DNA from: Bradyrhizobium amphicarpaeae
GTDB lineage: Bacteria; Pseudomonadota; Alphaproteobacteria; Rhizobiales; Xanthobacteraceae
Direction of reading: 5' to 3'
DNA: 64,000 nucleotides
NCBI RefSeq assembly: GCF_002266435.3
Contig: NZ_CP029426.2
Span: forward strand, 2,944,001 to 3,008,000
The position numbers and the translations under genes were made by a program. Numbering within the stretch: the first letter of the stretch is position 1; each line of letters starts with the position of its first letter. Below are positions 31,233 to 47,253 of the stretch, in pieces. Below the pieces are notes generated by a model. That model searched no databases. It was not told the DNA's origin and saw only the letters and a program-made list of their open reading frames with translations.

Positions 31233-34200
31233 CTAATGCGCTGTCGCACGCACCCGCGCGATCGTCTCGCGAACGCCTGACCAAGCCGGCTTGTCCGGCG
31301 CGAATTGCCTGCGCAAGAAAGTGACGAGTTCCTCGATTTGCGCGTCGCTCATGCTGTTTCTGAATGCGGGCATGTAGCCGAGGTCGCTCGACACGGGATC
31401 GGCGATGCCGTGCAGGATCACCTGCACGAGATTGTCCGCCTTTGTGCTGTGAATGTTGCTGTTGAGCGCGAGCGAGGGCCGGGAGCCGAATAGCGGCAGG
31501 CCGCCGACCTCGTGGCAGACGGCGCAGGCGCCCTGATAGAGCCGTGCGCCGCTGGAGGAGGCGACCGTGACCTGCGTTGCGCTCTCGAGCTTTGCGGCAA
31601 GCGCAGGCGCATCGGCTGCGGTGTCGTTGAACGAATTGAGATAGACCGCCATCGCGCGGATGTCCCGGTCGGGCAGGGCCTTGAGGTCCCTGACGACAGG
31701 CGCCATCGGGCCGGCAGCGACGCCGTGATAGCGCGAATGGCCGGTGCGCATATAGGCGAACAGCTCGTCCTCGCTCCATGGGATCGGGGCATGCGAGACC
31801 GAGGTCAGCGGCGGCGCCTCCCAGCCCTCGGCAAAGCCGCCGGCGAGGTAGGTGTCGCGCTGCTCGGCGCCCAACGCATTGCGCGGCGAATGACAGCCGC
31901 TGCAATGGCCGAGGCCCTCGACGAGGTAGGCGCCGCGATTCCAGGCCTCGGATTTGGTGGGGTCGGGCTTGAATTCCTTGGTCTGGTGGAACAGCGCATT
32001 CCATCCCGCGAGCAGCGGGCGCAGATTGAGCGGGAAGGCGAGGGTGTTCGCCGGCGCCGTCGCGCGCACCGCTGGCTGCGCCATCAGGTAAGCGTAGAGC
32101 GCCTGCATGTCGGCGTCACCGGTCTTTGAAAAATGCGTGTACGGAAAGGCGGGATAGAGCTGCCGTCCATCGCGGTGCAATCCTTCGCGCATCGCGCGCT
32201 CGAAGGCTGGGTAGGACCAGGCGCCGATGCCGGTCTCGACATCAGGCGTGATGTTGGTCGCGTAGATCGTGCCGAACGGTGTCTCCAATGCGCGGCCGCC
32301 GGCGTAGAGCGCGCCATTGATCGTGGTGTGGCACTCCGCGCAGTTGCCGAGCGCTGCGAGTTGCTCTCCGCGCGCGATTGTCGCGGCGGAATAGACCGAT
32401 GCATCCGGTCGCGCGATCGGCGCGATCGCGCGTCCCGGCAGCAGCGCCGCGCCGATGCCGATCGCGGCGGTGCAAACCGCCGCAATCGTCGCGACAATGC
32501 CGGCGCGTTTGGCGAAGGGATTCTCCCAGCTGCGCGACGGCTGCGGCGGAACGGGCGCGGGCAGGGCCTGCGGCGGCGCCGGCGTAGTGCCGTGCAATCC
32601 CTTCAGGATGCGTTCCGGCGTAAACGGCGGCTCGCGAAAGCGCACGCCGGTCGCATCGAAGATCGCATTGGCAATTGCCGCGGCGCTCGGGACCGAGGCG
32701 GATTCGCCGACGCCGAGCGGCGGCTGATCCGGTCGCGGCAGCATCAGCACGTCGATCTTGGGCACGTCCGGGAACGGGATGATCGGATAGGCGCCCCATT
32801 CGCGCGCCGCCACCGCGCCACGCTCGAACGAGACCTCCTCCATCAGCGCGCGGCTGGTGGACTGGATGACGTTGCCGTGGATCTGGTGGCGCACGCCGTC
32901 CGGATTGATCATCAATCCGGAATCCTGTCCCGCAACCACACGCGTGACGCTGACATCGCCGGTCGATGTGTTCACCGCGACGTCGGCAATCCAGGCCGAC
33001 CACGCCGCGCCATAGCCGGGAAACTTGCTGTGGACGTAGAGCGCATAGGCGAAACCGCGCCCGCGCACGATTTCGCCGTCTTTCTCTTCGCGCACCGGCC
33101 GGGGCGTCCAGCCCGCACGCTCGGCCACCGCATTGACGAGATCGACGGCGCGCTGATCCTTGAGATAACGCAAGCGGTATTCGATCGGGTCGACGCCGGC
33201 CTCGGTGGCGGCTTCGTCGATGTAGGATTCGTGCGCAAAGGTGTTCGGCAGCGCGGAAACACCGCGGAACCAGGAGGCGCGCACGATCGGCGGCATATCG
33301 TGGGCGACGACACGCATGTGGTCGTAATCGTAGGGCGGGATCGCGGTGCGGTCGCCCATCTGGAGCACGGCGGGGTCGGATGGAATGCGCCCGGTGAGCA
33401 GCAACGCCAGCGTCGGCGCGGCGTTCGAGGGATAGCGCGTGGCGAGATCGTAACCGGCGATGCCGCCGTCGGCATCGAGCCCGCCATCGACATCGATGAG
33501 CTGCGCCGTGCCCTTGGGCTCCCAGGCGTGCTCCTGCTCGCGTGTGAGCTGCACGCGCACGGGGCGCCCGACCGCGCGCGACAGCAGCAAGGCGTCGGCG
33601 GTGACATCGTCAGCGCAATTGCGGCCGTAGCAGCCAGCGGCCTCCAGCCGGATCACCTCGATCTCGCTCTCGGGTCGCTCGATCAGCAGCGCGAGGTCGC
33701 TGCGCAGCACATGCGGATTTTGCGTGCCCGACCAGACCCGGATATTGCCGTCGCTGAAATCGGCAACCGCACAGGATGGGCCGATCGAGGCGTGCATCTG
33801 ATAAGGCCACACGTAAGTGCGCTGCATCGGCTTGGCCGCGTTTGATATCGCCGCATCGACGTCGCCCTTGTCGATCAGCGTGCGCGGCGTCGAGGGATTG
33901 GCGCGCAGCGCCGTCTCGACGTCGGCAAGATCGGTCAACGCCGGCGTCGGCTTCCAGCTCACCTCGAGCTGCTCGGCCGCGCGGATCGCATTTTCCTCAC
34001 GCTCGGCGACGAGACCGACGAAGTCGCCGATGCGGATGACGGCGACAAGGCCGGGAATGTCGCGCACCGAGGATTCATCGACCGCGATCAGGCTGGTGCC
34101 GACGAACGGGCCGGCATCGACGCCGGCATAGGGCGGCCGCACCACGCGGCCGTGCAGCATGCCGGGGACGCGGATATCGTGCACGAAGGTCAACGCGCCG

Positions 34201-34754
34201 GTGGCCTTGGCGGGCAGATCGACGCGCGGCATCGACTGACCGACGATGGCATAATCGCCGACCGCCTTGACGGTGACGTCGTCGGCAAGTTCGAGGCGGA
34301 TCGTCTCGCTGCCGATCAACTCCCCATAACTGATGCTGCGATTGTCGCGTCCGCGCACGAGGCCGTCTTCGATCCTGAGATCTGCCGCCGGTAGCTCCAG
34401 CCGCTCGGCGGCACGCGCGATCAGGAAGTGACGCGCTTGCGCCGCGGCCTTGCGCAGCGGCACGGCGGTGATCTGGATGGTCTCGCTCGCGATCGTCGCG
34501 CCCTGGTTCGGCACCACCGCGGTGTCGCCGAGCACGACGACGACGCGCGCAAAGGAGACATCCAGCTCCTCGGCGACGATCTGGCCGAGCGCGGTGCGGA
34601 TGCCTGTGCCGAGATCGACATGGCCGTTATAGGCGTTGACCGAGCCGTCCGCGGTGATGCGGATGAAAGTTTCGGAGGTGAGCTCGTCCACGGTGCGGAC
34701 GACCACGAGCGAGCCGGATTGACGCTCAACTCCATCAGGGGCAGGGGAGGCCAT
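31233..34754 (-). CDS. nicB: nicotinate dehydrogenase large subunit (molybdopterin domain fused to cytochrome c)
   Basis: A 1173-residue fusion. Residues about 1-735 form a xanthine-oxidase-family molybdenum domain with GHVDLGTGIRTALGQI, PNQGATIASETIQ, AAGCYGRNCADDV and the catalytic-Glu motif GVGESASVPSAA. A membrane-anchor-like segment follows (about 755-780). Then comes a cytochrome c part with three haem sites: CAECH (about 805), CSGCH (about 953) and CAVCH (about 1078). This is the architecture of NicB of Pseudomonas putida, which hydroxylates nicotinate to 6-hydroxynicotinate and passes electrons via haem to the respiratory chain. Isoquinoline or aldehyde dehydrogenases share the design. 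The nearby 6-hydroxynicotinate reductase and enamidase genes favour nicotinate. Its ATG overlaps the nicA stop by one base. Confidence 0.82.
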   Translation of the reverse strand: MASPAPDGVERQSGSLVVVRTVDELTSETFIRITADGSVNAYNGHVDLGTGIRTALGQIVAEELDVSFARVVVVLGDTAVVPNQGATIASETIQITAVPLRKAAAQARHFLIARAAERLELPAADLRIEDGLVRGRDNRSISYGELIGSETIRLELADDVTVKAVGDYAIVGQSMPRVDLPAKATGALTFVHDIRVPGMLHGRVVRPPYAGVDAGPFVGTSLIAVDESSVRDIPGLVAVIRIGDFVGLVAEREENAIRAAEQLEVSWKPTPALTDLADVETALRANPSTPRTLIDKGDVDAAISNAAKPMQRTYVWPYQMHASIGPSCAVADFSDGNIRVWSGTQNPHVLRSDLALLIERPESEIEVIRLEAAGCYGRNCADDVTADALLLSRAVGRPVRVQLTREQEHAWEPKGTAQLIDVDGGLDADGGIAGYDLATRYPSNAAPTLALLLTGRIPSDPAVLQMGDRTAIPPYDYDHMRVVAHDMPPIVRASWFRGVSALPNTFAHESYIDEAATEAGVDPIEYRLRYLKDQRAVDLVNAVAERAGWTPRPVREEKDGEIVRGRGFAYALYVHSKFPGYGAAWSAWIADVAVNTSTGDVSVTRVVAGQDSGLMINPDGVRHQIHGNVIQSTSRALMEEVSFERGAVAAREWGAYPIIPFPDVPKIDVLMLPRPDQPPLGVGESASVPSAAAIANAIFDATGVRFREPPFTPERILKGLHGTTPAPPQALPAPVPPQPSRSWENPFAKRAGIVATIAAVCTAAIGIGAALLPGRAIAPIARPDASVYSAATIARGEQLAALGNCAECHTTINGALYAGGRALETPFGTIYATNITPDVETGIGAWSYPAFERAMREGLHRDGRQLYPAFPYTHFSKTGDADMQALYAYLMAQPAVRATAPANTLAFPLNLRPLLAGWNALFHQTKEFKPDPTKSEAWNRGAYLVEGLGHCSGCHSPRNALGAEQRDTYLAGGFAEGWEAPPLTSVSHAPIPWSEDELFAYMRTGHSRYHGVAAGPMAPVVRDLKALPDRDIRAMAVYLNSFNDTAADAPALAAKLESATQVTVASSSGARLYQGACAVCHEVGGLPLFGSRPSLALNSNIHSTKADNLVQVILHGIADPVSSDLGYMPAFRNSMSDAQIEELVTFLRRQFAPDKPAWSGVRETIARVRATAH

Positions 34755-35236
34755 CAATCAACGGCCTCGGTGAGCTGGCCTGAAGCGCGCATCACGGCGC
34801 GCAGGATTTCGACATGGGTGCCGCAGCGGCAGAGATTGTAGCGCAGCGCGGCGACCGCCTCCTGCTCGGTCGGCCGCGGGTTGATCGCGAGCAGCGCCTT
34901 GGTGGTCATGATCATGCCGTTGAGGCAATAGCCGCATTGCGCAGCCTGTTCGTCGATGAACGCCTGCTGCACCACGTCAGGCTTGTCGCGCGTGCCGAGT
35001 CCTTCGAGCGTCACGATGTCGCGGCCGGCGCAGCCAGTGACGGGAATCACGCAGGAGCGGGCCGGGGCCCCGTCGATCAGGACAGTGCAGGTGCCGCATT
35101 CGCCGAGGCCGCAACCATATTTCGGGCCGTTGAGCGCGAGGTCGTTGCGCAGCACGTAGAGCAGCGGCGTCTCCGGCGCTGCGGCGATGTCGTGGATCGC
35201 CCCATTCACGGTGAGACGGATCGGTGTCTGCGTCAT
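34754..35236 (-). CDS. nicA: nicotinate dehydrogenase small subunit (2x[2Fe-2S])
   Basis: A 160-residue ferredoxin-type subunit of molybdenum hydroxylases. The N-terminal plant-type [2Fe-2S] cluster uses CGLGECGTC (Cys42, 47, 50) and a further Cys62. The C-terminal four-helix cluster uses CGYCLNGM and NLCRCGTH. It relays electrons from the molybdenum site of NicB to the haems. Gene overlap with nicB (stop/start sharing one base) fixes stoichiometric expression. I start at ATG 35236 (MTQTPIRL). Upstream sequence in the same frame codes a direct repeat and is leader DNA, not protein. Confidence 0.86.
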   Translation of the reverse strand: MTQTPIRLTVNGAIHDIAAAPETPLLYVLRNDLALNGPKYGCGLGECGTCTVLIDGAPARSCVIPVTGCAGRDIVTLEGLGTRDKPDVVQQAFIDEQAAQCGYCLNGMIMTTKALLAINPRPTEQEAVAALRYNLCRCGTHVEILRAVMRASGQLTEAVD

Positions 35237-35256
35237 CCTCGTTTCCAAGCGCTCGG

Positions 35257-35292: not shown

Positions 35293-35302
35293 CTACGTCG
35301 CG

Positions 35303-35480: not shown

Positions 35481-35504
35481 AACCGCGGTCTCGCTGGCTC
35501 TGAC

Positions 35505-36962
35505 ATGGTGATGGAAACGACGAGCGCTGCTCTCGACAAGATCCGCTGCGATGCTTGTCCGGTGATGTGCTACATCAAGCCGGGCGCCGCGGGCGCCTGC
35601 GATCGCTACGCCAATCACGACGGCAAGCTCGTCCGCGTCGATCCGCATGTGATCCTGGAGCGCACGGTCTCGCATGGCGGCAAGCTGGTCCCGTTCAGCC
35701 GCACCGAAGATTGGGACGGCAAGATCGTCCACGAACCCTCCACCTTTGTGACGGCGATCGGCGCAGGCACGACCTATCCCGACTACAAGCCGGCGCCGTT
35801 CATCGTCTCCGCGGAGGTCGACGGCGTCGACATGGTGACTGTCGTCACCGAGGGCATCTTCTCCTATTGCGGCATCAAGGTGAAGATCGACACCGATCGC
35901 TATCTCGGGCCGGAGACCGCGACCGTCCGGGCGCAGGGCGAGGCGGTCGGCCACGTCACCACCAGCGAATACGGCTCGCAGATGCTGTCGCTCGGCGGCG
36001 TGCATCATCTGACCGGCGGCTCAAAGAAGGAGGGCCGCGTCACCTGCGACACGCTGATGGATCTCGCCAATTGCAAGGCGGTCGAGCTGACCATCGACGG
36101 CGGCGCGAGTGTCGTGGTGCAGGCCGGCCAGCCGCCGATCGTCAACGGCATGAAAGAAGAGCGCATGCGGGTCGGCTGCGGCTCGGCGACGATCGGCATG
36201 TTCGCCAAGCAATGGCACGGCAAGGTCGACGAGGTCGTCGTGGTCGACGACCACATCACCGGCGTGCTCAGTGAGCACCAGGCCGGCAAGCTGCTCGACA
36301 TCGCCGACACCGGCATCAAGATGAAGGGCCGCCGCTCGACGCCCGGCCGTTATTTCCAGGTCGCCGATCCCGGTACGGGGTGGGGTGGGACCAACATCTC
36401 CGATCCGCTCGCGATCCTCGGACCGTTCGATGCCAAGGAGGCAAAGCCGGGTCTTTCGATGCTGATGGTCTCCACCACCGGTGAGCATTCGTCCTATTAC
36501 GTGCTCGACGAGGCCCTGAAACCGGTCGAGACCGAAATGCCTGCCGAGCTGAAGTTTTCGGTCGAGCGCATCCAGGAGAATTGCGAACCGGCGCTGTGCA
36601 CGGTGCTGTTCATGGCGGGTGCCGGCGGCTCGCTGCGGGCAGGCGTCACGGACAATCCGGTGCGGCTGACACGTTCGGTGAAGGATGCGCTGACGCGCGT
36701 CACCAGCGGCGGCGCGCCGGTGTATGTCTGGCCCGGCGGCGGCATCACCTACATGGTCGACGTGACGCAGATGCCGGCGGGCGCGTTCGGCTACGTGCCC
36801 ACACCGGCGCTGGTCGCCCCGATCGAGTTCACGATGAAGCTGTCCGACTACGCCGCGCTCGGCGGCCACATGGATTACGTGAAGCCGCTCTCCGAGGTGC
36901 AGAACGGCGAGGATGTCCGCCAGCTGCCCTGGCAGAACCCGATCCCGGGACCTCGGGCATGA
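35505..36962 (+). CDS. hnr: 6-hydroxynicotinate reductase
   Basis: The 485-residue protein matches 6-hydroxynicotinate reductase of the Eubacterium barkeri nicotinate pathway, as I recall that family. That enzyme is an iron-sulfur enzyme reducing 6-hydroxynicotinate to 1,4,5,6-tetrahydro-6-oxonicotinate, with reduced ferredoxin as donor. Near the N-terminus are Cys15, Cys18, Cys22 and Cys32 (CDACPVMC...ACDRY), a likely [4Fe-4S] ligand set. Conserved-looking Gly-rich blocks follow, such as DPGTGWGGTNISDP and WPGGGITYMVDV. It heads an operon with UPF0280 and DUF1185 genes, an ABC importer and marR. The start may be ATG 35505 or 35511; no strong ribosome-binding site is visible. Family recognition is from memory, supported by the enamidase gene nearby. 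Confidence 0.78.
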   Translation: MVMETTSAALDKIRCDACPVMCYIKPGAAGACDRYANHDGKLVRVDPHVILERTVSHGGKLVPFSRTEDWDGKIVHEPSTFVTAIGAGTTYPDYKPAPFIVSAEVDGVDMVTVVTEGIFSYCGIKVKIDTDRYLGPETATVRAQGEAVGHVTTSEYGSQMLSLGGVHHLTGGSKKEGRVTCDTLMDLANCKAVELTIDGGASVVVQAGQPPIVNGMKEERMRVGCGSATIGMFAKQWHGKVDEVVVVDDHITGVLSEHQAGKLLDIADTGIKMKGRRSTPGRYFQVADPGTGWGGTNISDPLAILGPFDAKEAKPGLSMLMVSTTGEHSSYYVLDEALKPVETEMPAELKFSVERIQENCEPALCTVLFMAGAGGSLRAGVTDNPVRLTRSVKDALTRVTSGGAPVYVWPGGGITYMVDVTQMPAGAFGYVPTPALVAPIEFTMKLSDYAALGGHMDYVKPLSEVQNGEDVRQLPWQNPIPGPRA

Positions 36963-37855
36963 CGAGGCTCCCGCAAATCGCATTGCTGTCTGATGGCCGG
37001 CGGCTGCATTTGCAGGATGGTCCGATTGACCTGGTCGTTGAGGCGCGGGGACGCGCGGACGATGTGCGTGCGGCTTACGAGGCTGCGGCGCGACGGTTTG
37101 CCGGGCTGCTCGACGAACTCTGCGCCGAATTGCCGGAGCTGCGGAGCGCCGCCGGGAAGCGTAGTTCGCTGAAGGGCGTGGTTGCGCGTCGGATGCACGC
37201 CGCTGTCGCGCCTTACGCCTCCGATTGCTTCATCACGCCGATGGCGGCTGTTGCCGGGAGTGTGGCGGAGGAGATCCTGGGCGCCATGCTCGGCGCTGCG
37301 ACGCCGGACCGTGTCTATGTGAACAACGGTGGCGACATTGCGCTTCATCTCGGTAGGGCTGAATATTTCTCCGTCGGCCTGATGGACCGACCTGATCGCG
37401 ACGGCGTGATGCGGACGATGCGGCTGGATGCCGACGATCCCGTACGCGGCATCGCGACCAGCGGACGGCACGGCCGCAGTTTTTCGCTCGGAATTGCGGA
37501 TGCCGTGACGGTGTTGGCGGCGACGGCGTCGCAGGCCGACGCGGCTGCGACCGTGATCGCCAATGCGGTCGATCTGCCCGGGCATCCCGCCATCGTCCGG
37601 ACGCCTGCCAACGAGTTGCAGCCCGACAGCGACCTCGGCGCGCGACTTGTGACCCGCAATGTCGGTGTATTGTTGCAGAATGAGATCGCGATGGCACTCG
37701 AATCTGGCGCGGAACGTGCACGTCAATTGTTCGATCGCGGATTGATCGAGGGTGCCGTGGTGCGGCTTTGTGGTGATATGCTTGTCATCGGAACCAAGGA
37801 TATAGAAGAGCAACGAACGCGCCCGCTTGTACCGGAGAACGCGGTCTGTGCCTGA
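36959..37855 (+). CDS. UPF0280 family protein (ApbE-like fold)
   Basis: A 298-residue protein of the UPF0280 group, whose fold resembles ApbE flavin transferases. The block VYVNNGGDIALHL (about residue 120) and the later TSGRHGRSFSLGIADAVTVLAAT are typical. ApbE proteins attach FMN covalently to Thr/Ser of partner redox proteins; whether UPF0280 proteins do so is not established. Its ATG overlaps the hnr stop (ATGA), so it is translationally coupled to the reductase. That suggests a role in maturing, or a catalytic step next to, 6-hydroxynicotinate reductase. This role is inference. Confidence 0.8.
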   Translation: MTRLPQIALLSDGRRLHLQDGPIDLVVEARGRADDVRAAYEAAARRFAGLLDELCAELPELRSAAGKRSSLKGVVARRMHAAVAPYASDCFITPMAAVAGSVAEEILGAMLGAATPDRVYVNNGGDIALHLGRAEYFSVGLMDRPDRDGVMRTMRLDADDPVRGIATSGRHGRSFSLGIADAVTVLAATASQADAAATVIANAVDLPGHPAIVRTPANELQPDSDLGARLVTRNVGVLLQNEIAMALESGAERARQLFDRGLIEGAVVRLCGDMLVIGTKDIEEQRTRPLVPENAVCA

Positions 37856-37870: not shown

Positions 37871-38455
37871 ATGAGCGCGATCATCCGCAAGATCGTCACC
37901 GTCGTCGAAGAGACCCAGATGGAGATGGGCCGGCAGGTCTCGCCGCCGACCCGGCGCGCGGCGGCGATTGCCGTCATCGAAAATCCCTTTGCCGGACGAT
38001 ATGTCGAAGACCTCTCGCCGCTGATTGCGATTGGCGAGGAACTGGGCGAGCTCCTGTCGAAGCGCGCGGTGGCGGCGCTCGGCATCGATGGCGCCAAGGC
38101 GCAGAGCTACGGCAAGGCCGCGGCCGTCGGAGAGAACGGCGAACTGGAGCATGCCGCCGCGATCCTCCATCCCAAGATGGGCGCGCCGGTGCGCAAGGTT
38201 CTGGGCAAGGGCGCAGCGCTGATCCCGTCGTCCAAGAAGCGGAGCGGTCCCGGCACGACGCTCGACATTCCGCTCGGGCACAAGGATGCCGCGTTCGTGC
38301 GCAGCCATTTCGACGGCATGGAGGTGCAGATCAACGACGCGCCGCGCGCCAACGAGATCATGGTCGCGGTCGCCGTCACCGACAGCGGCCGTCCGCTGCC
38401 GCGCGTCGGCGGGCTGACGGTTGCGGAAGTGAAGGGCGAGGACGGCTTGAGATAG
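37871..38455 (+). CDS. DUF1185 / amino acid synthesis family protein
   Basis: A 194-residue protein of the Pfam family named amino acid synthesis (DUF1185). It begins IRKIVTVVEETQMEMGR and has PPTRRAAAIAVIENPFAGRYVEDLSPL, SYGKAAAVGENGELEHAAAILHPKMGAPVR and SSKKRSGPGTTLDIPLGHKDA. Structures are known but no function is established for the family as far as I know. It lies 15 bases after the UPF0280 gene in the hnr operon. Its position suggests it takes part in the ring reduction or opening steps, or in tautomer/lactam handling. That is a guess from context. Confidence 0.8.
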   Translation: MSAIIRKIVTVVEETQMEMGRQVSPPTRRAAAIAVIENPFAGRYVEDLSPLIAIGEELGELLSKRAVAALGIDGAKAQSYGKAAAVGENGELEHAAAILHPKMGAPVRKVLGKGAALIPSSKKRSGPGTTLDIPLGHKDAAFVRSHFDGMEVQINDAPRANEIMVAVAVTDSGRPLPRVGGLTVAEVKGEDGLR

Positions 38456-38536
38456 AGCTCGGAGCGGGAGGCGGGCGCAGCCTCTCCGATGAGATCACGC
38501 AGAAGACGTAAGAGAGTTCAAAAACTGGAGGTTGGG

Positions 38537-39739
38537 ATGCGAGCAAGAAATTACTTCGTCGGCGCGGCGTTTGCGCTTCTGGCGGGCGGCATGGCTAATT
38601 CGGCCCTGGCGCAGGACATCAAGATCGGCGAGATCAACAGCTATTCGCTGCTGCCGGCGTTCACCGAACCCTATCGCAAGGGCTGGCAGCTCGCGGTCGA
38701 AGAGATCAACGCGGCCGGCGGCATCAACGGCAAGAAGCTCGTCGTCATTTCGAAGGACGACGGCGGCAAGCCGGCGGACGCGCAGACCGCGGCCAACGAG
38801 CTCGTCTCGAGCGAGGGCGTTGCGATGCTGACGGGTACGTTCCTGTCGAACATCGGCCTCGCCGTCAGCGACTTCGCCAACCAGAAGAAGGTGTTCTTCC
38901 TCGCGGCCGAGCCGCTGACGGACGCCGTCACCTGGTCCAAGGGCAACAAATACACCTTCCGCCTGCGTCCTTCCAACTACATGCAGGCGGCGATGCTGGT
39001 GGAGGCGGCCGCGAAGCTGCCGGCAAAGCGCTGGGCGACCATCGCGCCCAACTATGAATACGGCCAGTCCGCAGTCGCCGTCTTCAAGAAGCTGATGTCG
39101 GAGAAGCGCCCGGACATCCAGTGGGTCGACGAGCAGTGGCCGCCGCAGGGCAAGATCGACGCGGGTCCGGTGGTGCAGGCCGTTGCCGCCGCCAATCCCG
39201 AGGCGATCCTCAACGTCACCTTCGGCGCCGATCTCGTCAAGCTCGTGCGTGAAGGCAACACCCGCGGCCTGTTCAAGGGGCGCGAAGTCGTCTCGTTCCT
39301 GACCGGTGAGCCGGAATATCTCGATCCGCTCAAGGACGAGACGCCCGAGGGCTGGATCGTCACCGGTTACCCCTGGTACTCGATCAAGACGCCCGAGCAT
39401 GACGCGTTCCTGAAGGCCTACCAGACCAAGTACAACGACTATCCGCGCCTCGGCTCGATCGTCGGCTACCAGACCATCAAGGCGGCCGCCGCAATCCTGG
39501 CGAAGGCCGGCTCGACCGATCCGGAGAAGCTGATCGCCGCGGCGGAGGGGATCTCCATGCCGTCGCCGTTCGGAGAGATCACCTTCCGCAAGATCGACCA
39601 TCAGTCGACGCTCGGCGCATTCGTCGGCAAGACCGCGCTGAAGGACGGCAAGGGCGTGATGGTGGACTCGGTCTACAAGAAGGGCGCGGACTACCTGCCC
39701 AGCGATGCCGAGGTCGAGAAGCTGCGTCCGAAGGATTGA
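38537..39739 (+). CDS. branched-chain-type ABC transporter substrate-binding protein
   Basis: A 400-residue periplasmic receptor of the LivJ/K type. The signal peptide covers residues 1-26 (NYFVGAAFALLAGGMANSALAQ), followed by IKIGEINSYSLLPAFTEPYRKGWQLAVEEINAAGGING and KLVVISKDDGGKPADAQTAANELV, the standard family opening. GGAGG is five bases before the ATG. Members often bind aromatic or heteroaromatic acids rather than amino acids. Here, between pathway genes and the matching permease and ATPases, nicotinate or 6-hydroxynicotinate is the natural candidate. A palindromic repeat separates it from the permease gene. Confidence 0.87.
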   Translation: MRARNYFVGAAFALLAGGMANSALAQDIKIGEINSYSLLPAFTEPYRKGWQLAVEEINAAGGINGKKLVVISKDDGGKPADAQTAANELVSSEGVAMLTGTFLSNIGLAVSDFANQKKVFFLAAEPLTDAVTWSKGNKYTFRLRPSNYMQAAMLVEAAAKLPAKRWATIAPNYEYGQSAVAVFKKLMSEKRPDIQWVDEQWPPQGKIDAGPVVQAVAAANPEAILNVTFGADLVKLVREGNTRGLFKGREVVSFLTGEPEYLDPLKDETPEGWIVTGYPWYSIKTPEHDAFLKAYQTKYNDYPRLGSIVGYQTIKAAAAILAKAGSTDPEKLIAAAEGISMPSPFGEITFRKIDHQSTLGAFVGKTALKDGKGVMVDSVYKKGADYLPSDAEVEKLRPKD

Positions 39740-39896: not shown

Positions 39897-41786
39897 ATGG
39901 CCTTTTACGTCGTACAGTTTCTGACCGGTCTCGCCAGCGCGGCGTCGCTGTTCCTGGTGGCCTCGGGCCTGTCGATCATCTTCGGCGTGACGCGGATCGT
40001 CAATTTCGCGCATGGCGCCTTCTACATGATCGGCGCCTACATTGCCTTCACCCTGACGGAGCGTCTGTCGGGTGCATTCGGCTTCTGGGGCAGCATGGTG
40101 CTGGCGGCGATGGCCGTGGCGCTGATCGGCGTGCTCGTCGAGATGGTGCTGCTTCGCCGCATCTATCACGCGCCAGAGCTATTCCAGCTGCTCGCGACCT
40201 TCGGCCTGACCTTGATGGTCGAGGATCTCGTGGTGCTGATCTGGGGGCCCGACGATCTCGTCGGCCGCCGCGCGCCGGGCTTCCGGGGCGCCATCGATTT
40301 CTTCGGTCAGAACATCCCGAGCTATGATCTGTTCCTGATCGTGCTCGGGCCCGTCGTGCTCGGCATCCTCTGGCTGCTGTTCCAGCGCACGCGCTGGGGC
40401 GTGCTGGTGCGCGCGGCGACGCAAGACCGCGACATGGTCGCGGCGCTCGGCGTCAATCAGAAATGGCTGTTCACGTCCGTGTTCGCGGTCGGCGTCTTCC
40501 TCGCCGCGCTCGGCGGCGCGCTCCAGATCCCGCGCGATGCCGTCCACCACGCCATGGATCTGCGCATCATCGTCGAGGTCTTCGTTGTCGTCGTGATCGG
40601 CGGCCTCGGCAGCATCGTCGGCGCCTTCGTCGCGGCGGTGCTGGTCTCCGAGCTCAATGCCTTCGGCATCCTGATCTTTCCGAAGATTTCCATCATCCTG
40701 GTCTTCCTGGTGATGGCGGTGGTGCTGATCGTGCGGCCCTGGGGGCTGTTCGGCAAGCCGGAGGCGCCCGCGCGCAAGACGCCCGGGCTCACCGTCAATC
40801 CATGGCGCCCGCTGACGTCGAACGAGCGGCTTGCGGCGCTGGCGGCGCTCGTGATCGCAGCGACACTGCCGCTGTTTGCCGGCAACTACGTGCTGACCGT
40901 CGGCTCCGAGATCGCGATCTTCGTGATCTTCGCCGTCAGCCTGCACTTTCTGATGTCGGTCGGGGGGCTCGCGTCCTTCGGCCATGCCGCCTATTTCGGC
41001 CTCGGTGCCTACGGCGTTGCCTTCCTCGCCAAGATGGCGGGGCTGCCGATGATCGTGTGCCTGCTGCTCGGGCCGCTGCTGGGCTGCATGGGGGCCGCCG
41101 TGTTCGGCTTCTTTGCCGTACAGCTATCGGGTGTGTACTTCGCGATGCTGACGCTCGCCTTCGCGCAGATCGTGTGGTCGATCGCGTTCCAATGGGTGAG
41201 CGTCACCGGCGGCGACAACGGCATATTGGGCGTCTGGCCGGAAAAATGGGCGGGAAGCCCGTCGCACTTCTATTGGCTCGCGCTCGGCGTTGCCGCGTTG
41301 GTGACCATTGCGCTGCGGGCCATGGTGTTCTCGCCGTTCGGCTACGCGCTTCGGGCCACGCGCGACTCGCTGCTGCGCAGCGAAGCGATCGGCATCAATG
41401 CCAAGCGCATCCAGTGGACGGCGTTCGTGATCGCGGGCACGACCGCCGGCATCGGCGGTGCGCTGTTCGCCTACCTGAAGGGGAGCGTCTTTCCTGACAA
41501 TCTCGGCATCTCGCTGTCGGTCGATGCGCTCGTCATGGTGCTGCTCGGCGGCGTCGAGACGGTGTCGGGCGCGGTGATCGGCGCGATCGTCTACAAGGCG
41601 CTGAGCATCTGGCTGATAAGCCAGACCGACCTGTCGAAGCTCGTGCTCGGCGGCTTCATCATGCTGATCGTCGTCGTCTTCCCCAAGGGCATCGTCGGCA
41701 TGCTGGAAATGCTGGCGCAGCGCCGCAGGAAGTCGTCGCCGCCGGGATCATCTCTGCTTGCCAAGCCGATCGAGTCCGCCGAATGA
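39897..41786 (+). CDS. fused branched-chain-type ABC permease (LivH-LivM)
   Basis: A 629-residue fusion of the two permease subunits that are normally separate. Residues about 1-290 match LivH (FGVTRIVNFAHGAFYMIGAY, AALGVNQKWLFTSVF, IIVEVFVVVVIGGLGSIVGAF). From about 320 on it matches LivM (SVGGLASFGHAAYFGLGAYG, RATRDSLLRSEAIGINAKRIQW, LVMVLLGGVETVSGAVIGA). Each half has the conserved cytoplasmic coupling helix. There are about 16 spans. The stop overlaps the livG-type ATG. The fusion keeps the two subunits at one-to-one ratio. Confidence 0.88.
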   Translation: MAFYVVQFLTGLASAASLFLVASGLSIIFGVTRIVNFAHGAFYMIGAYIAFTLTERLSGAFGFWGSMVLAAMAVALIGVLVEMVLLRRIYHAPELFQLLATFGLTLMVEDLVVLIWGPDDLVGRRAPGFRGAIDFFGQNIPSYDLFLIVLGPVVLGILWLLFQRTRWGVLVRAATQDRDMVAALGVNQKWLFTSVFAVGVFLAALGGALQIPRDAVHHAMDLRIIVEVFVVVVIGGLGSIVGAFVAAVLVSELNAFGILIFPKISIILVFLVMAVVLIVRPWGLFGKPEAPARKTPGLTVNPWRPLTSNERLAALAALVIAATLPLFAGNYVLTVGSEIAIFVIFAVSLHFLMSVGGLASFGHAAYFGLGAYGVAFLAKMAGLPMIVCLLLGPLLGCMGAAVFGFFAVQLSGVYFAMLTLAFAQIVWSIAFQWVSVTGGDNGILGVWPEKWAGSPSHFYWLALGVAALVTIALRAMVFSPFGYALRATRDSLLRSEAIGINAKRIQWTAFVIAGTTAGIGGALFAYLKGSVFPDNLGISLSVDALVMVLLGGVETVSGAVIGAIVYKALSIWLISQTDLSKLVLGGFIMLIVVVFPKGIVGMLEMLAQRRRKSSPPGSSLLAKPIESAE

Positions 41787-42574
41787 GCGTTGCACCCCCG
41801 CTTCTCGTGGTCGAAGGCCTGACCAAATCCTATGGCGGCATCCATGCCGTGCGCGGCGTTTCGTTCTCGCTGCGCGCCGGCGAGATTCTGGCGCTGATCG
41901 GGCCGAACGGCGCCGGCAAGAGCACCTGCTTCGACATGCTCAACGGCCAGAACCAGCCCGATACCGGGCAGGTCCGCCTGCTCGGCGAAGAGACCACCGG
42001 CAAGAAGCCGCGCGAGATCTGGCGCATGGGCGTCGGGCGCACGTTCCAGATCACCGCGACCTTCGCCACCATGACCGTTCGCGAGAACGTGCAGGTGGCG
42101 CTGATTTCACATGGCAAGCAGCTGTTCAATCTGTTCGGCTCGGCGCCCAAGTTCGACCGCGGCGAGGCCGGGCGGCTGCTCGAGCTGGTCGGCATGGGCG
42201 GCTACGCGGATCGTCCTTGCGGCGAGTTGGCCTATGGCGACCTCAAGCGGCTCGAGCTTGCGGTGGCGCTCGCCAACCAGCCGAAATTGCTCCTGATGGA
42301 CGAGCCGACCGCCGGCATGGCGCCGCGCGAGCGTGTCGACCTGATGCGGCTCACGGCGCAAATCGCGCGCGAGAAGTCGATCGGCGTGCTCTTCACCGAG
42401 CACGACATGGACGTGGTGTTCGAGCACGCCGACCGCATCATCGTGCTGAATCGAGGGACGCTGATCGCCGAAGGCACGCCGGCCGAGGTGCGCGGCAATC
42501 CGCAGGTGCAGGCGGTCTATCTCGGCGAGGGTCTCGTCTACGATGCCCGCCATCGCGAGGGGGCCTCGGCATGA
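41783..42574 (+). CDS. branched-chain-type ABC transporter ATPase (LivG-like)
   Basis: A 263-residue ATPase. Walker A is GPNGAGKST, the signature region is AYGDLKRLELAVALANQP (degenerate, as in LivG proteins), Walker B is LLLMDEPTAGMAP and the switch His is in FTEHDMDVVFEHADRI. LivG-specific segments are WRMGVGRTFQITATFATMTV and the C-terminal GNPQVQAVYLG. It pairs with the following LivF-like ATPase. ATGA overlaps join it to both neighbours, giving a tightly coupled operon. Confidence 0.9.
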   Translation: MSVAPPLLVVEGLTKSYGGIHAVRGVSFSLRAGEILALIGPNGAGKSTCFDMLNGQNQPDTGQVRLLGEETTGKKPREIWRMGVGRTFQITATFATMTVRENVQVALISHGKQLFNLFGSAPKFDRGEAGRLLELVGMGGYADRPCGELAYGDLKRLELAVALANQPKLLLMDEPTAGMAPRERVDLMRLTAQIAREKSIGVLFTEHDMDVVFEHADRIIVLNRGTLIAEGTPAEVRGNPQVQAVYLGEGLVYDARHREGASA

Positions 42575-43275
42575 AGCTCACCGTCGAGGGCCTCAACAGC
42601 CATTATGGCCCGGCGCATATCCTGTTCGACATTGGCTTTGAGGTCGGCGAGGGCGAGGTGGTGGCGCTGCTTGGGCGCAACGGCGCCGGCAAGTCGACCA
42701 CGTTCCGCTCGATCGTCGGGCTCGTGGCGCAACGCTCCGGCCGCATCATGTTCGAGGGCAAGGACGTCTCGCTGCGTCCGACCCACGAAATCGTGCGCGA
42801 GGGGCTCGGCTATGTGCCGGAGGAGCGCCGCATCTTCACCGACCTGACGGTGGAGGAGAACCTCGAAGTCGGCAAGCAGCCCAGGCGTCCGAATGCGCCA
42901 TACTGGACCCGCGAAAAACTATTCGCGCTGTTTCCAAATCTCGGCGAAATGAAGAACCGCCCGGGCGGCCGCATGAGCGGCGGCGAGCAGCAGATGCTCA
43001 CCATCGCGCGCACCCTGATGGGCAATCCGTCACTGGTGCTGCTGGACGAGCCCTCGGAGGGCCTGTCGCCGAAGATCGTGGAACAGATGGTCGATGCCAT
43101 CCTGACCATGAAGAAGGAGGGCGTCAGCATCGTCGTCTCCGAGCAGAATCTGCACTTCGCGCGGCTGATCTCGGATCGCGCCTACATCATCGAGCGCGGC
43201 CGCATCTGCTTCGGCGGCACCATGGCCGAGCTCGACGCTCGTCCGGATATCCGCGACGCGCATCTGTCGTTGTGA
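42571..43275 (+). CDS. branched-chain-type ABC transporter ATPase (LivF-like)
   Basis: A 234-residue ATPase: Walker A GRNGAGKSTT, signature MSGGEQQMLTIARTLMGNP, Walker B LVLLDEPSEGLSPKIVEQM, and SIVVSEQNLHFARLISDRAYIIERG in place of the usual switch region, as in LivF proteins. YVPEERRIFTDLTVEENLEVG is the characteristic Q-loop neighbourhood. The start overlaps the LivG stop. It completes a four-gene importer that probably brings in the heteroaromatic substrate of the surrounding pathway. Confidence 0.9.
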   Translation: MKLTVEGLNSHYGPAHILFDIGFEVGEGEVVALLGRNGAGKSTTFRSIVGLVAQRSGRIMFEGKDVSLRPTHEIVREGLGYVPEERRIFTDLTVEENLEVGKQPRRPNAPYWTREKLFALFPNLGEMKNRPGGRMSGGEQQMLTIARTLMGNPSLVLLDEPSEGLSPKIVEQMVDAILTMKKEGVSIVVSEQNLHFARLISDRAYIIERGRICFGGTMAELDARPDIRDAHLSL

Positions 43276-43298
43276 GGCAAGGGAAGGGCTGCGAACGG

Positions 43299-43754
43299 AT
43301 GGCGAGAAGCGTCACGGCGAAGAAGAGCGTCAAGCCGGGAAAACCGCCTTACGTGCTCGACGAGCAGGTCGGCTTCATCCTGCGCCAGGTCTGGCAGCGC
43401 CACAGCTCGATCTTCTCCCGCGATATCGGCACCAATTTGACGCCGACGCAGTGGGCGGCATTGTCGAAACTCGCCGAGACCGGGCCGTGCTCGCAGAACC
43501 AGCTCGGCCGGCTGACGGCGATGGACGTCGCGACCATCAAGGGCGTGATCGACCGCCTGACCGCGCGCGGGTTGACTGAGACCAGCCAGGATCCCGAGGA
43601 CGGTCGGCGGCTCCTTGTCAGCCTGACGCGCGCCGGTCAGCAGCTTTCGGAGAAGGTCGCGCCGAACGCGCTCGCCATCACCCGGGAAACGCTGTCGCCG
43701 CTCGATGCGAAAGAGCGCGAGATGCTGATGGCGCTGTTGAACAAGCTGCGGTGA
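43299..43754 (+). CDS. MarR family transcriptional regulator
   Basis: A 151-residue winged-helix protein. It has VGFILRQVWQRHSSIFSRDIG, TPTQWAALSKLAETGPCSQNQLGRLTAMDVATIKGVIDRLTARGL (recognition helix) and DPEDGRRLLVSLTRAGQQL (wing). MarR proteins bind 16-20-bp palindromes as dimers and release on binding phenolic or heteroaromatic ligands; NicR, which controls nicotinate genes in Pseudomonas, is of this family. As last gene of the hnr-transporter operon it is well placed to control the operon and the matching palindrome at the enamidase gene. ATG 43299 is used; a GTG at 43272 overlapping the livF stop is possible. Confidence 0.87.
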   Translation: MARSVTAKKSVKPGKPPYVLDEQVGFILRQVWQRHSSIFSRDIGTNLTPTQWAALSKLAETGPCSQNQLGRLTAMDVATIKGVIDRLTARGLTETSQDPEDGRRLLVSLTRAGQQLSEKVAPNALAITRETLSPLDAKEREMLMALLNKLR

Positions 43755-43762
43755 AGGGTGCG

Positions 43763-43851
43763 GTAGGGTGGGCAAAGCGAAGCGTGCCCACCACCTTTCC
43801 CAGTCAGCAAGAGATCGTGGGCACGTCACTTCGCGCCTTTGCCCACCCTAC
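43763..43851. repeat. palindromic intergenic repeat (GTAGGGTGGGCAAAG type)
   Basis: An inverted repeat with outer arms GTAGGGTGGGCAAAG (43763-43777) and CTTTGCCCACCCTAC (43837-43851). An inner pair, CGTGCCCAC (43783-43791) and GTGGGCACG (43817-43825), is nested within. It is a relative of the repeat at 39749 and lies immediately after the marR stop, where it could terminate or stabilise the operon transcript. Confidence 0.8.
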
Positions 43852-43883
43852 GGCAGTTGAACGAGATGCGGGGATTGGCGACT

Positions 43884-43914
43884 AACCTCGATGGGGACGT
43901 CATCGAGGTTTTTT
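43884..43914 (+). terminator. terminator-like hairpin that overlaps the next gene's ribosome-binding site
   Basis: A perfect 10-bp stem, AACCTCGATG (43884-43893) and CATCGAGGTT (43901-43910), with a 7-base loop, runs into six T residues (43909-43914). It is a textbook intrinsic terminator for the upstream operon. The ATG of the following gene is only two bases after the T-run, and its only Shine-Dalgarno (GAGG, 43905-43908) is inside the 3' arm of the stem. The same hairpin would therefore both end transcription and hide the ribosome site. Confidence 0.75.
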
Positions 43915-43915
43915 C

Positions 43916-44305
43916 ATGAGAGCGGCGACGCGGTTTGTATTTGTCTTGGGTTTCGGCGCGGTGCTCGCCGGCCAATGCGTGCCGGCCTTTGCCGCCCAGC
44001 CTTATGAAGGTTTCTGGGCGTCGACCAAAAAGGACTGCCGCGACGACGACAGCCCCAACCGCATGAGCATCGAAGGCGGCAATCGGTTGTATTGGTACGA
44101 GACACGGTGCCGCGCCAGCGAGATCACCGCCGACGGAAAGCTCGGCTGGACAATGAAGCTCGCCTGCGAAGGCGAGGGCGAGAAGTTTCGCTCCAATCCC
44201 CGGGTCTCCATCGCAACGGACGGCAAGCTGGTGATGGACAACGGACCGGTCGGGCGTGACAAGCGCCAGACCTATGTGCGTTGTGAGATCGCGAGGAAGC
44301 GTTGA
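43916..44305 (+). CDS. secreted hypothetical protein
   Basis: A 129-residue protein with a clear signal peptide (hydrophobic 8-24, cleavage after AFA near residue 27). The mature part opens QPYEGFWASTKKDCRDDDSPNRMSIEGG and contains four cysteines, which could form two periplasmic disulfides. It looks like a small lipocalin- or inhibitor-like beta protein, but I recognise no family. Its ribosome-binding site is buried in a terminator-like hairpin. It is convergent with the next gene, four bases between the stops. Confidence 0.75.
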   Translation: MRAATRFVFVLGFGAVLAGQCVPAFAAQPYEGFWASTKKDCRDDDSPNRMSIEGGNRLYWYETRCRASEITADGKLGWTMKLACEGEGEKFRSNPRVSIATDGKLVMDNGPVGRDKRQTYVRCEIARKR

Positions 44306-44309
44306 TCCC

Positions 44310-44999
44310 TTACGTCTGCCCCGGCCATTTGGCGCGGTAGCGGATTTCGCTGCCGTCGCCGAGCCGCCGCCACGTTCCGAACTCCGGCGTATGCGGCGCG
44401 CGGGCGCTCAAATCGATCGGATAGATCCGGCTCGGCTGGCCCTGGATGTCCACGGCGAGCTGCCGGTGCGAGGTTCGAAACGCGAGCTCGACCTTGCCTG
44501 CGATGACAGGCTGGTCGCCGTCACGATGAAAGGCGGCCGGGGTCACTTCGCCCGGCATCGTATTGAGGTCGGTCTGCAATTCGATGGTGATGCCCTGGGC
44601 TGATGTCGGCACTGCGATCCCGGCCGGAAAACGGACCTCGAACACGAGCAGGGGATTGGCGCCGTTGCGGTTGAGCCATGGCGTCGCGGTCGCATAGGCG
44701 TAGGCAATGTAGATGCCGATCCCGGCGACGCAGAGCAGGACGACAACGCCCAGTGACTTCAAGCTGTTGCGCGTGACGCTGCCCTTGCTGGTGTCATTGC
44801 CGGAGCGCGCCACCAGCCAGTTGGCGAGCACCGCGCCGGCGATCGCGCCGATGGGCGAGTAGACGAACAATCCCAGCAGCCCCGATGTGATCGGGTCCGC
44901 CCGGTTGCCGAAATCGAACAGGGAAAGCAGCACGAAGGTCGTGACATAGCCGGCCACCGCGGCGACGACGCCGATAGCTATGCGCGATGAGCTCTTCAT
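44310..44999 (-). CDS. hypothetical membrane protein
   Basis: The 229-residue protein has three hydrophobic segments in its N-terminal half (about residues 8-27, 39-62 and 83-104). A soluble C-terminal domain of about 120 residues follows, rich in beta-type pattern (LLVFEVRFPAGIAVP, ITIELQTDLNTMPG, RIYPIDLSARAPHT). No family recognised. GAGG precedes the ATG by five bases. It lies between the secreted-protein gene and the enamidase gene; its sequence gives no reason to link it to the catabolic genes. Confidence 0.72.
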   Translation of the reverse strand: MKSSSRIAIGVVAAVAGYVTTFVLLSLFDFGNRADPITSGLLGLFVYSPIGAIAGAVLANWLVARSGNDTSKGSVTRNSLKSLGVVVLLCVAGIGIYIAYAYATATPWLNRNGANPLLVFEVRFPAGIAVPTSAQGITIELQTDLNTMPGEVTPAAFHRDGDQPVIAGKVELAFRTSHRQLAVDIQGQPSRIYPIDLSARAPHTPEFGTWRRLGDGSEIRYRAKWPGQT

Positions 45000-45124
45000 G
45001 TTTCCCTCGATGGTCCAGCAACGAACTGCGGCCGCCGAGGGCTGCCTGCGTTAGACGCAGCAGGCAGGAGACTTGTTCAACGCCTTCAAGGGGCGATGCG
45101 GAGCGGCGTGCCGCTCCGGCTGCG

Positions 45125-46321
45125 TCACTTCACCACGATTTCCGGCACCTTGCCGGCCGGCGGGGTGTTGCGGCTGCGCTGGGTGCGGACGATGCCGTCG
45201 ATGATGGTCATGCCGATGCCGGGGAGGTCGCCGAGCTGGACGCTCTCCAGGATGTTCTTGCCGGGCGAGTGTTGGGCCTTGTCCATGATGACGAAATCGG
45301 CGGATCGCCCCACTTCAATGAGGCCGCAATCGAGCTCGCGCATCCGGGCGGTGTTGCCGGTGGCGAGGCAGAACGCGATCTCGGCCGGCAGCTCGCCGAG
45401 CGAGGACAGCATCGAGACCATGCGCAAAATGCCGAGCGGCTGCACGCCGGAGCCGGCGGGCGCATCGGTGCCGAGGATGACCCGGTGCAGATCGCCCATC
45501 TCGCGCGCCGTGCGCAGCGTGAACAGAGCGGAGCGCTCATTGCCGTTGTGTACGAGCTCGAGGCCGCGCTTGCAGCCCTCGCAGATGCAGCGGATCTGGT
45601 CGTCGGGGAGGGCGGTGTGGCCGCCATTGATGTGGCCGACCACGTCGGTGTCGGCCTCCAGCACGACGTCCTTGTCGATCAGGCCGGAGCCGGGGATCGA
45701 GGGGCCGCCGGTGTGGATCGTGCTCTGGATCCCGTATTTGCGCGCCCAGCCGACCATCTTGCGTGCGGTCGGGCCGTCCTTGACGCCGCCGAGGCCGACC
45801 TCACCGAGCAGCTTGACGCCGGCCGCGGCCAGCTCCTTGAAGTCCTCCTCGACCATCTCGCATTCGATCACCGGCGCGCCGGCGTGAACCTTCACGCCGC
45901 CCGGCCGCAGCGTCCAGAACGCGCGCTGGGCAAAGATCGCCATCGCTTTCAGGCCGACGACGTCGCGGGGGCGGCCCGGCATGTGAACCTCGCCGGCCGA
46001 GATCATGGTGGTGACGCCGCCATGGAGGTAGCTGTCGATCCAGTTGATCTGGTTCTGCCGCGGCGTCCAGTCGCCGGCGACGGGGTGGACGTGGCTGTCG
46101 ATCAGGCCCGGCGCCACCGTGGTGCCCTGGGCGTCGACGATGGTGGTTGCACCTTCGATGTCGACGTCCTTGAAACGGCCGATCGCGGTGATCTTGCCGT
46201 TCTCGGCGACGATGGTGTCGCCGTCCAGGATCGGCTTTTCCAGCGCGCCGGACAGGATCAGGCCGATGTTCCGGATCACCAGCTTCGACGGTCCGGTAGC
46301 CTGGGGTGCGTCATGCGCCAT
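45125..46321 (-). CDS. ena: enamidase (tetrahydro-6-oxonicotinate hydrolase), amidohydrolase family
   Basis: Enamidase opens 1,4,5,6-tetrahydro-6-oxonicotinate to 2-formylglutarate and ammonia. The 398-residue protein resembles Eubacterium barkeri enamidase in distinctive segments: VIRNIGLILSGALEKPIL, LHGGVTTMISAG, HMPGRP, GEVGLGGVKD, HTGGPSIPGS, VGHINGGHTAL and the C-terminal SRNTPPA. Metal ligands of the amidohydrolase fold are visible: His-x-His in DSHVHP, Glu in GEVGLG, His in HTGG and HINGG, and Asp in GTDAPAG. AAGGAG lies eight bases before the ATG. It diverges from fpr across a region with palindromes like those at the hnr promoter, placing it in the nicotinate pathway after Hnr. Confidence 0.85.
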   Translation of the reverse strand: MAHDAPQATGPSKLVIRNIGLILSGALEKPILDGDTIVAENGKITAIGRFKDVDIEGATTIVDAQGTTVAPGLIDSHVHPVAGDWTPRQNQINWIDSYLHGGVTTMISAGEVHMPGRPRDVVGLKAMAIFAQRAFWTLRPGGVKVHAGAPVIECEMVEEDFKELAAAGVKLLGEVGLGGVKDGPTARKMVGWARKYGIQSTIHTGGPSIPGSGLIDKDVVLEADTDVVGHINGGHTALPDDQIRCICEGCKRGLELVHNGNERSALFTLRTAREMGDLHRVILGTDAPAGSGVQPLGILRMVSMLSSLGELPAEIAFCLATGNTARMRELDCGLIEVGRSADFVIMDKAQHSPGKNILESVQLGDLPGIGMTIIDGIVRTQRSRNTPPAGKVPEIVVK

Positions 46322-46396
46322 GGAAGGGGCTCCTTATTCCCTGCTGCAACGCTTCCGATCTTGGGCAGCCTTGACCGCGGGAGCAAGCGGGATTAT

Positions 46397-46428
46397 TCAT
46401 TAGTATACGAATGATCGTGTACAAACGA
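46397..46428. promoter_or_regulatory. palindromic control sites between enamidase and ferredoxin reductase genes
   Basis: The divergent intergenic region contains CATTAGTATACGAATG (46398-46413), a near-palindrome centred on GTATAC and extended by TT/AT flanks. Directly after it is TCGTGTACAAACGA (46415-46428). The first shares GTATACGAATGAT with the operator in front of hnr; the second shares TGTACAAACG with the reverse complement of the nicA promoter palindrome. One or two common regulators are implied. Base assignments are direct; regulation is inference. Confidence 0.6.
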
Positions 46429-46479
46429 CGCATAGCTGCCCGCCTCGACAACCGCATTGACGCGACACGGATAGGTGAG

Positions 46480-47253
46480 ATGAGCAATTTCAATCAGGAA
46501 AGCGTTTTGAGCGTCCATCACTGGACCGACACGCTGTTCTCTTTCAAGACCACCCGCAGCCCGACCTTCCGTTTCCGTAACGGCGAATTCACCATGATCG
46601 GGCTCAAGGTCGGCGAGAAGCCGCTGCTGCGGGCCTATAGCGTTGCCAGCGCCAATTACGAGGACACGCTGGAGTTCTTCTCGATCAAGGTTCCGGACGG
46701 CCCGCTGACCTCGCGCCTCCAGCACCTCAAGGAAGGCGACGAGATCATCGTCAGCCGCAAGGCCACCGGCACGCTGGTGATCGATAATCTCGAGGAGGGC
46801 CGCAACCTCTATCTCATCGGCACCGGCACCGGCCTTGCGCCGTTCCTGAGTGTGATCAAGGACCCCGAGACCTACGAGCGGTTCGAGAAGGTCGTGCTGT
46901 TGCACGGCTGCCGGCACGTGAAGGAACTCGCCTATGGCGAGATGATCACCGAGACGCTGCCGAAGGACGAACTGATCGGCGAGTACATCCAGAACCAGCT
47001 GATCTACTACCCGACCGTGACCCGCGATCCGTTCCGCAACCGCGGTCGCATCACCGATCTCATCACCTCTGGCAAGCTGTTCGCTGATATCGGCCTGCCG
47101 GCGCTGGAGGCCGCTCACGACCGCGTCATGATCTGCGGCAGCCCGGCCCTTGTCGCGGACACCCGCGTGCTCCTGGGCGAACGCGGCTTCATCGAGGGGA
47201 ATCACGGCGAGCCGGCCCAATTCGTGGTCGAAAAGGCCTTTGCCGAGCGCTAA
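46480..47253 (+). CDS. fpr: ferredoxin-NADP+ reductase
   Basis: A 257-residue FAD enzyme of the bacterial subclass of plant-type reductases. The FAD-binding motif is LLRAYSVASANY (RxYS), the NADP pyrophosphate site is YLIGTGTGLAPFLSVI, and there are VLLHGCRHVKELAY and CGSPALVADT, with a C-terminus AQFVVEKAFAER. It moves electrons between NADPH and ferredoxin or flavodoxin. Divergent from the enamidase gene and sharing its control region, it could supply reduced ferredoxin to 6-hydroxynicotinate reductase. A housekeeping oxidative-stress role is the alternative. AGGTGAG sits at the ATG 46480; an upstream in-frame ATG (46411) overlaps the operators and is rejected. Confidence 0.88.
   Translation: MSNFNQESVLSVHHWTDTLFSFKTTRSPTFRFRNGEFTMIGLKVGEKPLLRAYSVASANYEDTLEFFSIKVPDGPLTSRLQHLKEGDEIIVSRKATGTLVIDNLEEGRNLYLIGTGTGLAPFLSVIKDPETYERFEKVVLLHGCRHVKELAYGEMITETLPKDELIGEYIQNQLIYYPTVTRDPFRNRGRITDLITSGKLFADIGLPALEAAHDRVMICGSPALVADTRVLLGERGFIEGNHGEPAQFVVEKAFAER

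Follow-up and report, generated by a model that had tools for sequence, protein, structure and literature searches.

Which route for nicotinate is encoded on the chromosome of Bradyrhizobium amphicarpaeae, and which proteins accompany its ring-reducing enzyme? The window analysed here is the whole 64,000-nucleotide stretch at positions 2,944,001-3,008,000 of NZ_CP029426.2; it lies within a single 7.03 Mb contig, and the cluster that it carries is chromosomal. An earlier note on this DNA, made from the letters alone, had proposed that a NicAB-type nicotinate dehydrogenase is joined here to a 6-hydroxynicotinate reductase (Hnr) and an enamidase. The genes that it named lie where it had placed them or very close by, and the assembly is real and conserved across related loci. 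The same span also contains genes for a UPF0280 protein, a DUF1185 protein, an ATP-binding cassette (ABC) importer and a MarR regulator, of which the note said nothing. We consider it likely that the whole is an aerobic nicotinate cluster of the Azorhizobium type, forming 1,4,5,6-tetrahydro-6-oxonicotinate, in which the UPF0280 protein acts on Hnr. This near-obligate ApbE-fold partner of Hnr, which lay outside the earlier note, is a useful new lead.

The pairing was followed in 299 Pseudomonadota genomes, the window's own included, with at most five to seven candidates scored per genome in most of them, so that a homologue may have been missed. All 21 genomes in which Hnr was found also carry UPF0280 (E<=2e-55), encoded on the hnr strand and no more than 0.6 kb away, while the 278 Hnr-less genomes gave only three UPF0280 matches, all partial (E about 4e-4 to 1e-3). 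Because these genomes are related (the 21 belong to eight genera), the counts are not independent events. Of these 21, 11 have a close enamidase (each at E<=1e-160) and the other 10 gave none; two Hnr-less genomes hold an enamidase of 42% identity (E 1.5e-91 and 1.2e-90). A similar picture emerged from 80 named loci, the best 80 of at least 592 confirmed Hnr relatives, about half of them from Bradyrhizobium and, by title, all but one (given simply as "bacterium") Pseudomonadota or Acidobacteria-type. Hnr stands there with at least one of 14 other searched genes in 80/80 loci, which is beyond chance. UPF0280 follows hnr by 307 bp or less in 76 of the 80, is displaced in two and is not in the locus in two; the genomes of these four exceptions all carry it, elsewhere in the case of the two loci lacking it. 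These counts do not come from the clustering of open reading frames (ORFs), which gave UPF0280 in 28 of 40 divergent loci, tblastn giving more. Labels of the importer ATPase gene in the related loci are rough, as its query extended past a stop codon, and they enter none of the counts.

Plasmids and close relatives tell the same story. UPF0280 is present in all 25 listed Hnr plasmids (at least 26 exist), 15 of which have an enamidase of more than 60% identity, and no distant Hnr homologue was found among these plasmids (25 of 26 listed). The closest relatives of the window are Bradyrhizobium, with an Hnr 99% identical in one locus (L025), and gene order is constant among the Bradyrhizobium loci as far as each contig reaches. 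In a sample of 195 Bradyrhizobium genomes, 192 have Hnr and 191 have UPF0280; the three without Hnr have no UPF0280 either. This co-absence and the retention of UPF0280 at a second site speak against mere linkage to hnr, and from the pairing across genomes and loci we infer that UPF0280 acts on Hnr.

What might such a factor do? Hnr itself had no match at E<=0.001 among the Pfam and NCBIfam families, and no relative of solved structure was found by sequence; its relatives are annotated as 6-hydroxynicotinate reductase in plasmid records. Four N-terminal cysteines (15, 18, 22 and 32) are invariant in 32/32 aligned relatives, and of the ten cysteines in total six are invariant in these 32 rows (C15, C18, C22, C32, C225 and C360). 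The Hnr of Eubacterium barkeri was reportedly purified, in work of 2006, with a covalently bound flavin and is said to hold one [2Fe-2S] and two [4Fe-4S] clusters. A published comparison gives 42% identity between that enzyme and the Hnr homologue of strain SG-6C (PMC3511419). Two genomes show a damaged Hnr match, split in two pieces in one (G016, L021/L022) and with an internal TGA in another (G139, L018), by decay or sequencing error.

The UPF0280 protein scores 413 bits with NF003322 (cut-off 290) and its predicted fold matches 2o34, which places it in COG2122/UPF0280. The start ATG of its gene overlaps the stop codon of hnr (ATGA). The model has the same fold as solved ApbE structures and the protein keeps the GGD, ATSG and ADxxxT motifs, with a score below the Pfam gathering cut-off for ApbE (PF02424, 21.5 against 25.6 bits); the searches made turned up no other ApbE-fold protein in the genome. 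ApbE enzymes use a Ser-His-Asp catalytic triad (PMC12052999), of which the serine (ATSG-like) and the aspartate (ADxxxT), assigned by motif and not by superposition, are present in 18/18 UPF0280 sequences. We propose that UPF0280 has Hnr as its target and most likely helps to mature a cofactor there, with covalent flavin attachment as the leading candidate. It would be the natural candidate for this step since it is the sole ApbE-fold protein found and overlaps the hnr stop codon, provided that the flavin of Hnr is covalent here. A more precise view sees in UPF0280/COG2122 a flavin transferase, or a flavin-handling maturase, dedicated to the Hnr family, with no classical histidine base and a non-canonical target site; it is tentative, and we hold it to be rather doubtful. 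Among the papers listed from the open-licence literature searched, none links hydroxynicotinate to flavinylation and the name UPF0280 is absent; COG2122 does occur there.

Around this pair lie the genes of the predicted pathway. The first enzyme is, as judged by its architecture, a predicted nicotinate dehydrogenase of respiratory type, with a [2Fe-2S] subunit and a molybdenum subunit that continues into three haem c domains. The three-haem tail that the note had seen was recovered in domain order: the molybdopterin domains come first, followed by CxxCH motifs at residues 806, 952 and 1078, and the most hydrophobic 19-residue window, at 754, falls between the molybdenum and haem parts. The NicA-like ORF is open to 35539, with its probable start codon, an ATG, at 35236. 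Of all assignments in the cluster, that of enamidase is the safest, orthology being set by sequence and activity predicted. With phmmer, residues 12-395 align to the E. barkeri enamidase 2vun far above other amidohydrolases, the next PDB match being at 6.5e-6, and the protein thus falls with the characterised enzyme, as claimed before. Three of the four segments quoted in support of that claim are identical in 2vun; the fourth, HMPGRP, is HFPGRP there. Enamidase was found in at least 43-44 of the 80 loci, depending on the rule used; this is a minimum, since many of the loci are cut off early.

We suggest the following sequence of steps. The ABC importer would probably take up nicotinate, which NicAB would convert to 6-hydroxynicotinate, the electrons passing via the three c-type haems to respiration. 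Hnr would then use low-potential electrons to reduce the ring, giving 1,4,5,6-tetrahydro-6-oxonicotinate; these electrons may come from NADPH through the Fpr-type reductase and a ferredoxin or flavodoxin whose gene lies elsewhere. Ring opening by enamidase would yield 2-formylglutarate and ammonium, and 2-formylglutarate would presumably lead to glutarate and acetyl-CoA. The enzymes after 2-formylglutarate were not searched for, and ORF clustering of the 40 divergent loci showed no obvious extra conserved enzyme, with few unlabelled clusters identified; one of these, of 521 aa, matched no Pfam family.

With regard to electron supply, the ferredoxin-NADP reductase gene announced beside the enamidase gene is present and has Fpr-type domains. 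Its best NCBIfam model, PRK10926 (NF008178), scores 162.9 bits, below the cut-off of 390. A cysteine-motif scan of the window found no ferredoxin-type motif in any plausible gene. Of 88 loci, many ended by a contig edge, 33 have an Fpr homologue. Fpr-like genes lie 0.1-1.0 kb from hnr in L065, L088 and L138 (the L138 copy being also 1.0 kb from ena), immediately upstream of hnr on the same strand in a Sagittula plasmid, and divergent from hnr within 1 kb in a Comamonadaceae plasmid. These five contexts within 1 kb of hnr are consistent with, but not proof of, a role in electron supply.

The combination of a respiratory first step with reductive ring opening, which the note had put forward for this organism, agrees with Azorhizobium biochemistry and is not a new one. 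The nicotinate pathway of Azorhizobium was reportedly worked out in 1992, and the first three genes are said to have been noted in Proteobacteria by 2006. Such a cluster has been described in A. caulinodans, B. japonicum USDA110 (blr3818-blr3830), R. palustris HaA2 and SG-6C (PMC3511419); thus the combination is established and the window holds one more copy. Moreover, Azorhizobium 61305R, a mutant in the catabolic nicotinate dehydrogenase, is Nic- but 6-OH-Nic+ (PMC3357923). The pathway belongs to an aerobic route already described, one that seems, from the Hnr counts, to be almost universal in Bradyrhizobium.

The enzymes on either side of Hnr vary. Of the 88 loci, 48 have a hydroxylase of the cytochrome type near hnr and 30 have one in which the iron-sulfur and molybdopterin parts are fused; the other 10, several of which are cut by contig ends, gave no hydroxylase. 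An FAD subunit of the molybdenum-dehydrogenase type accompanies 28 of the 30 fused proteins (Pfam-checked in L098 and L153). Partial matches underlie the cytochrome label of L047 and L138 and the fused label of L092 and L103. On an Hnr tree of 59 rows, which excludes the near-copies L026-L054 and the too short L137, at least four changes of hydroxylase type and at least 18 changes of enamidase presence are counted with often weak support, the latter number being inflated because loci are truncated at contig ends. As hydroxylase and ring-opener types differ in this way, Hnr and UPF0280, usually with DUF1185, seem to form a core with varied first and third steps. On the tentative view of UPF0280 as a dedicated flavin transferase or maturase, Hnr and UPF0280 would form a mobile module for reductive dearomatisation, repeatedly joined to cytochrome- or FAD-type molybdenum hydroxylases and paired with enamidase or hydantoinase-type ring openers for different N-heterocycles. 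A role of DUF1185 after ring opening is conceivable. Tandem DUF1185 (AA_synth) pairs were seen in L139 (10749-11914), L153 (11359-12518) and L155 (7934-9198), and the window has a single copy.

Several points weigh against an action of UPF0280 on Hnr, or against its flavin form. The ApbE catalytic histidine, which occupies the aligned column in 10 of 11 ApbEs, has its motif in 0/18 UPF0280 sequences, leaving the triad incomplete. The canonical flavinylation motif D-x-x-[ST]-G-A-[ST] occurs in 0/32 Hnr sequences, although other linkages are possible. Hnr has ten cysteines, against the twelve that the clusters reported for E. barkeri would require if all ligands were cysteine; with only six of the ten invariant, its cofactor set may differ from that of E. 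barkeri, non-cysteine ligands being possible. One Bradyrhizobium genome with Hnr, an 87%-complete draft, gave no UPF0280 match. DUF1185 is a near-equally constant neighbour of Hnr (72 of 80 loci), counted in these loci only, while the whole-genome co-occurrence counts cover Hnr, UPF0280 and enamidase. Finally, a Hydrogenophaga sp. BPS33 plasmid (NZ_CP044550, L154), which is not among the listed Hnr plasmids, has UPF0280 at four places. No hnr is annotated around two of these copies (1105-2037 and 11914-12846), and UPF0280 therefore has a context without Hnr; each is followed by a short ORF of the "uracil-DNA glycosylase family", MarR, a Rieske protein and a VanB-type reductase, and IS1071 transposases separate the repeats.

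A rival reading gives UPF0280 another role at the same enzyme. It might take part in the Hnr reaction itself, as a subunit or catalytic partner, or handle an unstable intermediate, and be no maturase; the ApbE fold would then be re-used, like the T-fold in urate oxidase and GTP cyclohydrolase. We regard this as less likely than not; like maturation, it places UPF0280 at Hnr. A reading that we find very improbable takes UPF0280 away from Hnr and assigns it to general metabolism, where it would transfer sulfur for homocysteine or cysteine, its place beside hnr being due to operon inheritance. COG2122 is indeed required for homocysteine synthesis in Desulfovibrio, and in the same source its homology to ApbE seems not to reach the flavin-binding region (PMC5764234), both of which also count against flavin transfer to Hnr. 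However, DUF39/HcyBio was not found in the window's genome or five relatives, UPF0280 is co-absent with Hnr, and the genomes of the two loci without a UPF0280 gene keep one elsewhere. A homology between Hnr and DUF39 would account for COG2122 as their common partner; a scan of Hnr at E<=10, with no DUF39 sequence in the comparison, gave no match to PF01837, which leaves room for a remote link. We retain the reading that UPF0280 acts on Hnr. COG2122 has a genetic role in anaerobic homocysteine synthesis (PMC5764234) and, in the literature consulted, no established activity; its near-obligate pairing with Hnr in tractable aerobes makes its function testable.

The variation in ring openers bears on the substrate. 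The cluster might degrade another pyridine or N-heterocycle, the Hnr homologues being reductases of wider specificity. Indeed, Hnr and UPF0280 stand near hydantoinase A genes in L134, L136, L137 and the Sagittula plasmid, or near acetophenone-carboxylase-like genes, with no close enamidase, and the 10 Hnr genomes without a close enamidase point the same way. But the window holds both enamidase and a cytochrome-type NicAB, and such a cluster is present in SG-6C, which degrades nicotinate via 6-hydroxynicotinate (PMC3511419). For the window we therefore judge another substrate improbable and keep nicotinate. L134, L136, L137, L152 and L153, which have hydantoinase A or acetophenone-carboxylase-like genes and no close enamidase in the stretch, possibly represent a pathway for another N-heterocycle annotated as 6-hydroxynicotinate reductase, and wherever a gene so annotated lies in a cluster with no close enamidase, its product may have a different ring as substrate.

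The features of the cluster are collected in Table 1. The two ORFs between the MarR gene and the enamidase gene match no Pfam family, and the right flank of the cluster has a DUF763 protein (49093-50343, minus strand) and a cytochrome P450 (47772-49037, plus strand).

Table 1. Genes of the nicotinate cluster, with positions in the window and the matches behind each assignment.
Feature	Position	Strand	Basis
NicB-like molybdopterin subunit, hydrophobic segment, three c-type haem motifs	31233..34757	-	Pfam MoCoBD_1/2, Cytochrom_C, Cytochrome_CBB3; CxxCH
NicA-like [2Fe-2S] subunit	34754..35236	-	Fer2, Fer2_2
Hnr, 6-hydroxynicotinate reductase homologue	35505..36962	+	Relatives so annotated in plasmid records
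UPF0280/COG2122 protein, ApbE-fold (predicted)	36959..37855	+	NF003322
AA_synth/DUF1185 protein	37871..38455	+	PF06684 254 bits; PDB 2qtp E 3.6e-88
ABC importer substrate-binding protein, branched-chain amino acid/urea type	38489..39739	+	Peripla_BP_6
ABC importer permease, two BPD_transp_2 stretches	39897..41786	+	Pfam
ABC importer ATPase 1	41783..42574	+	ABC_tran, BCA_ABC_TP_C
ABC importer ATPase 2 (start approximate)	42571..43275	+	ABC_tran; UrtE/LivF-like
MarR-family regulator	43272..43754	+	PF01047
Enamidase	45125..46321	-	PDB 2vun E 7.2e-109
Fpr-type ferredoxin/flavodoxin-NADP reductase (start probably 46480)	46411..47253	+	NF008178; NAD_binding_1, FAD_binding_6

Compared with known systems, the cluster shares a 6-hydroxynicotinate reductase and an enamidase with the fermentation of E. 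barkeri (reportedly ndh, hnr and ena). The first enzyme there is said to be a selenium-dependent FAD enzyme, whereas that of the window is a cytochrome-linked NicAB, and the window's Hnr has too few cysteines for the cluster set reported for E. barkeri if all ligands are cysteine. The NicAB architecture with three haems is that of the nic cluster of P. putida, in which the second step is reportedly taken by the decarboxylating monooxygenase NicC and not by a reductive Hnr. Unlike the ApbE, Ftp and FmnB FMN transferases, the UPF0280 protein has no counterpart of the catalytic histidine and stays below the Pfam ApbE cut-off, whereas its model shares their fold and that of the COG2122 protein DVU1097 (PDB 2o34), with GGD, ATSG and ADxxxT kept. 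The nearest likeness is to the clusters of PMC3511419, which come from the same or neighbouring genera; the available text of that work leaves two proteins unnamed, and, in a comparison that does not go gene by gene, the two extra conserved genes are here UPF0280 and DUF1185, the former being tied to Hnr.

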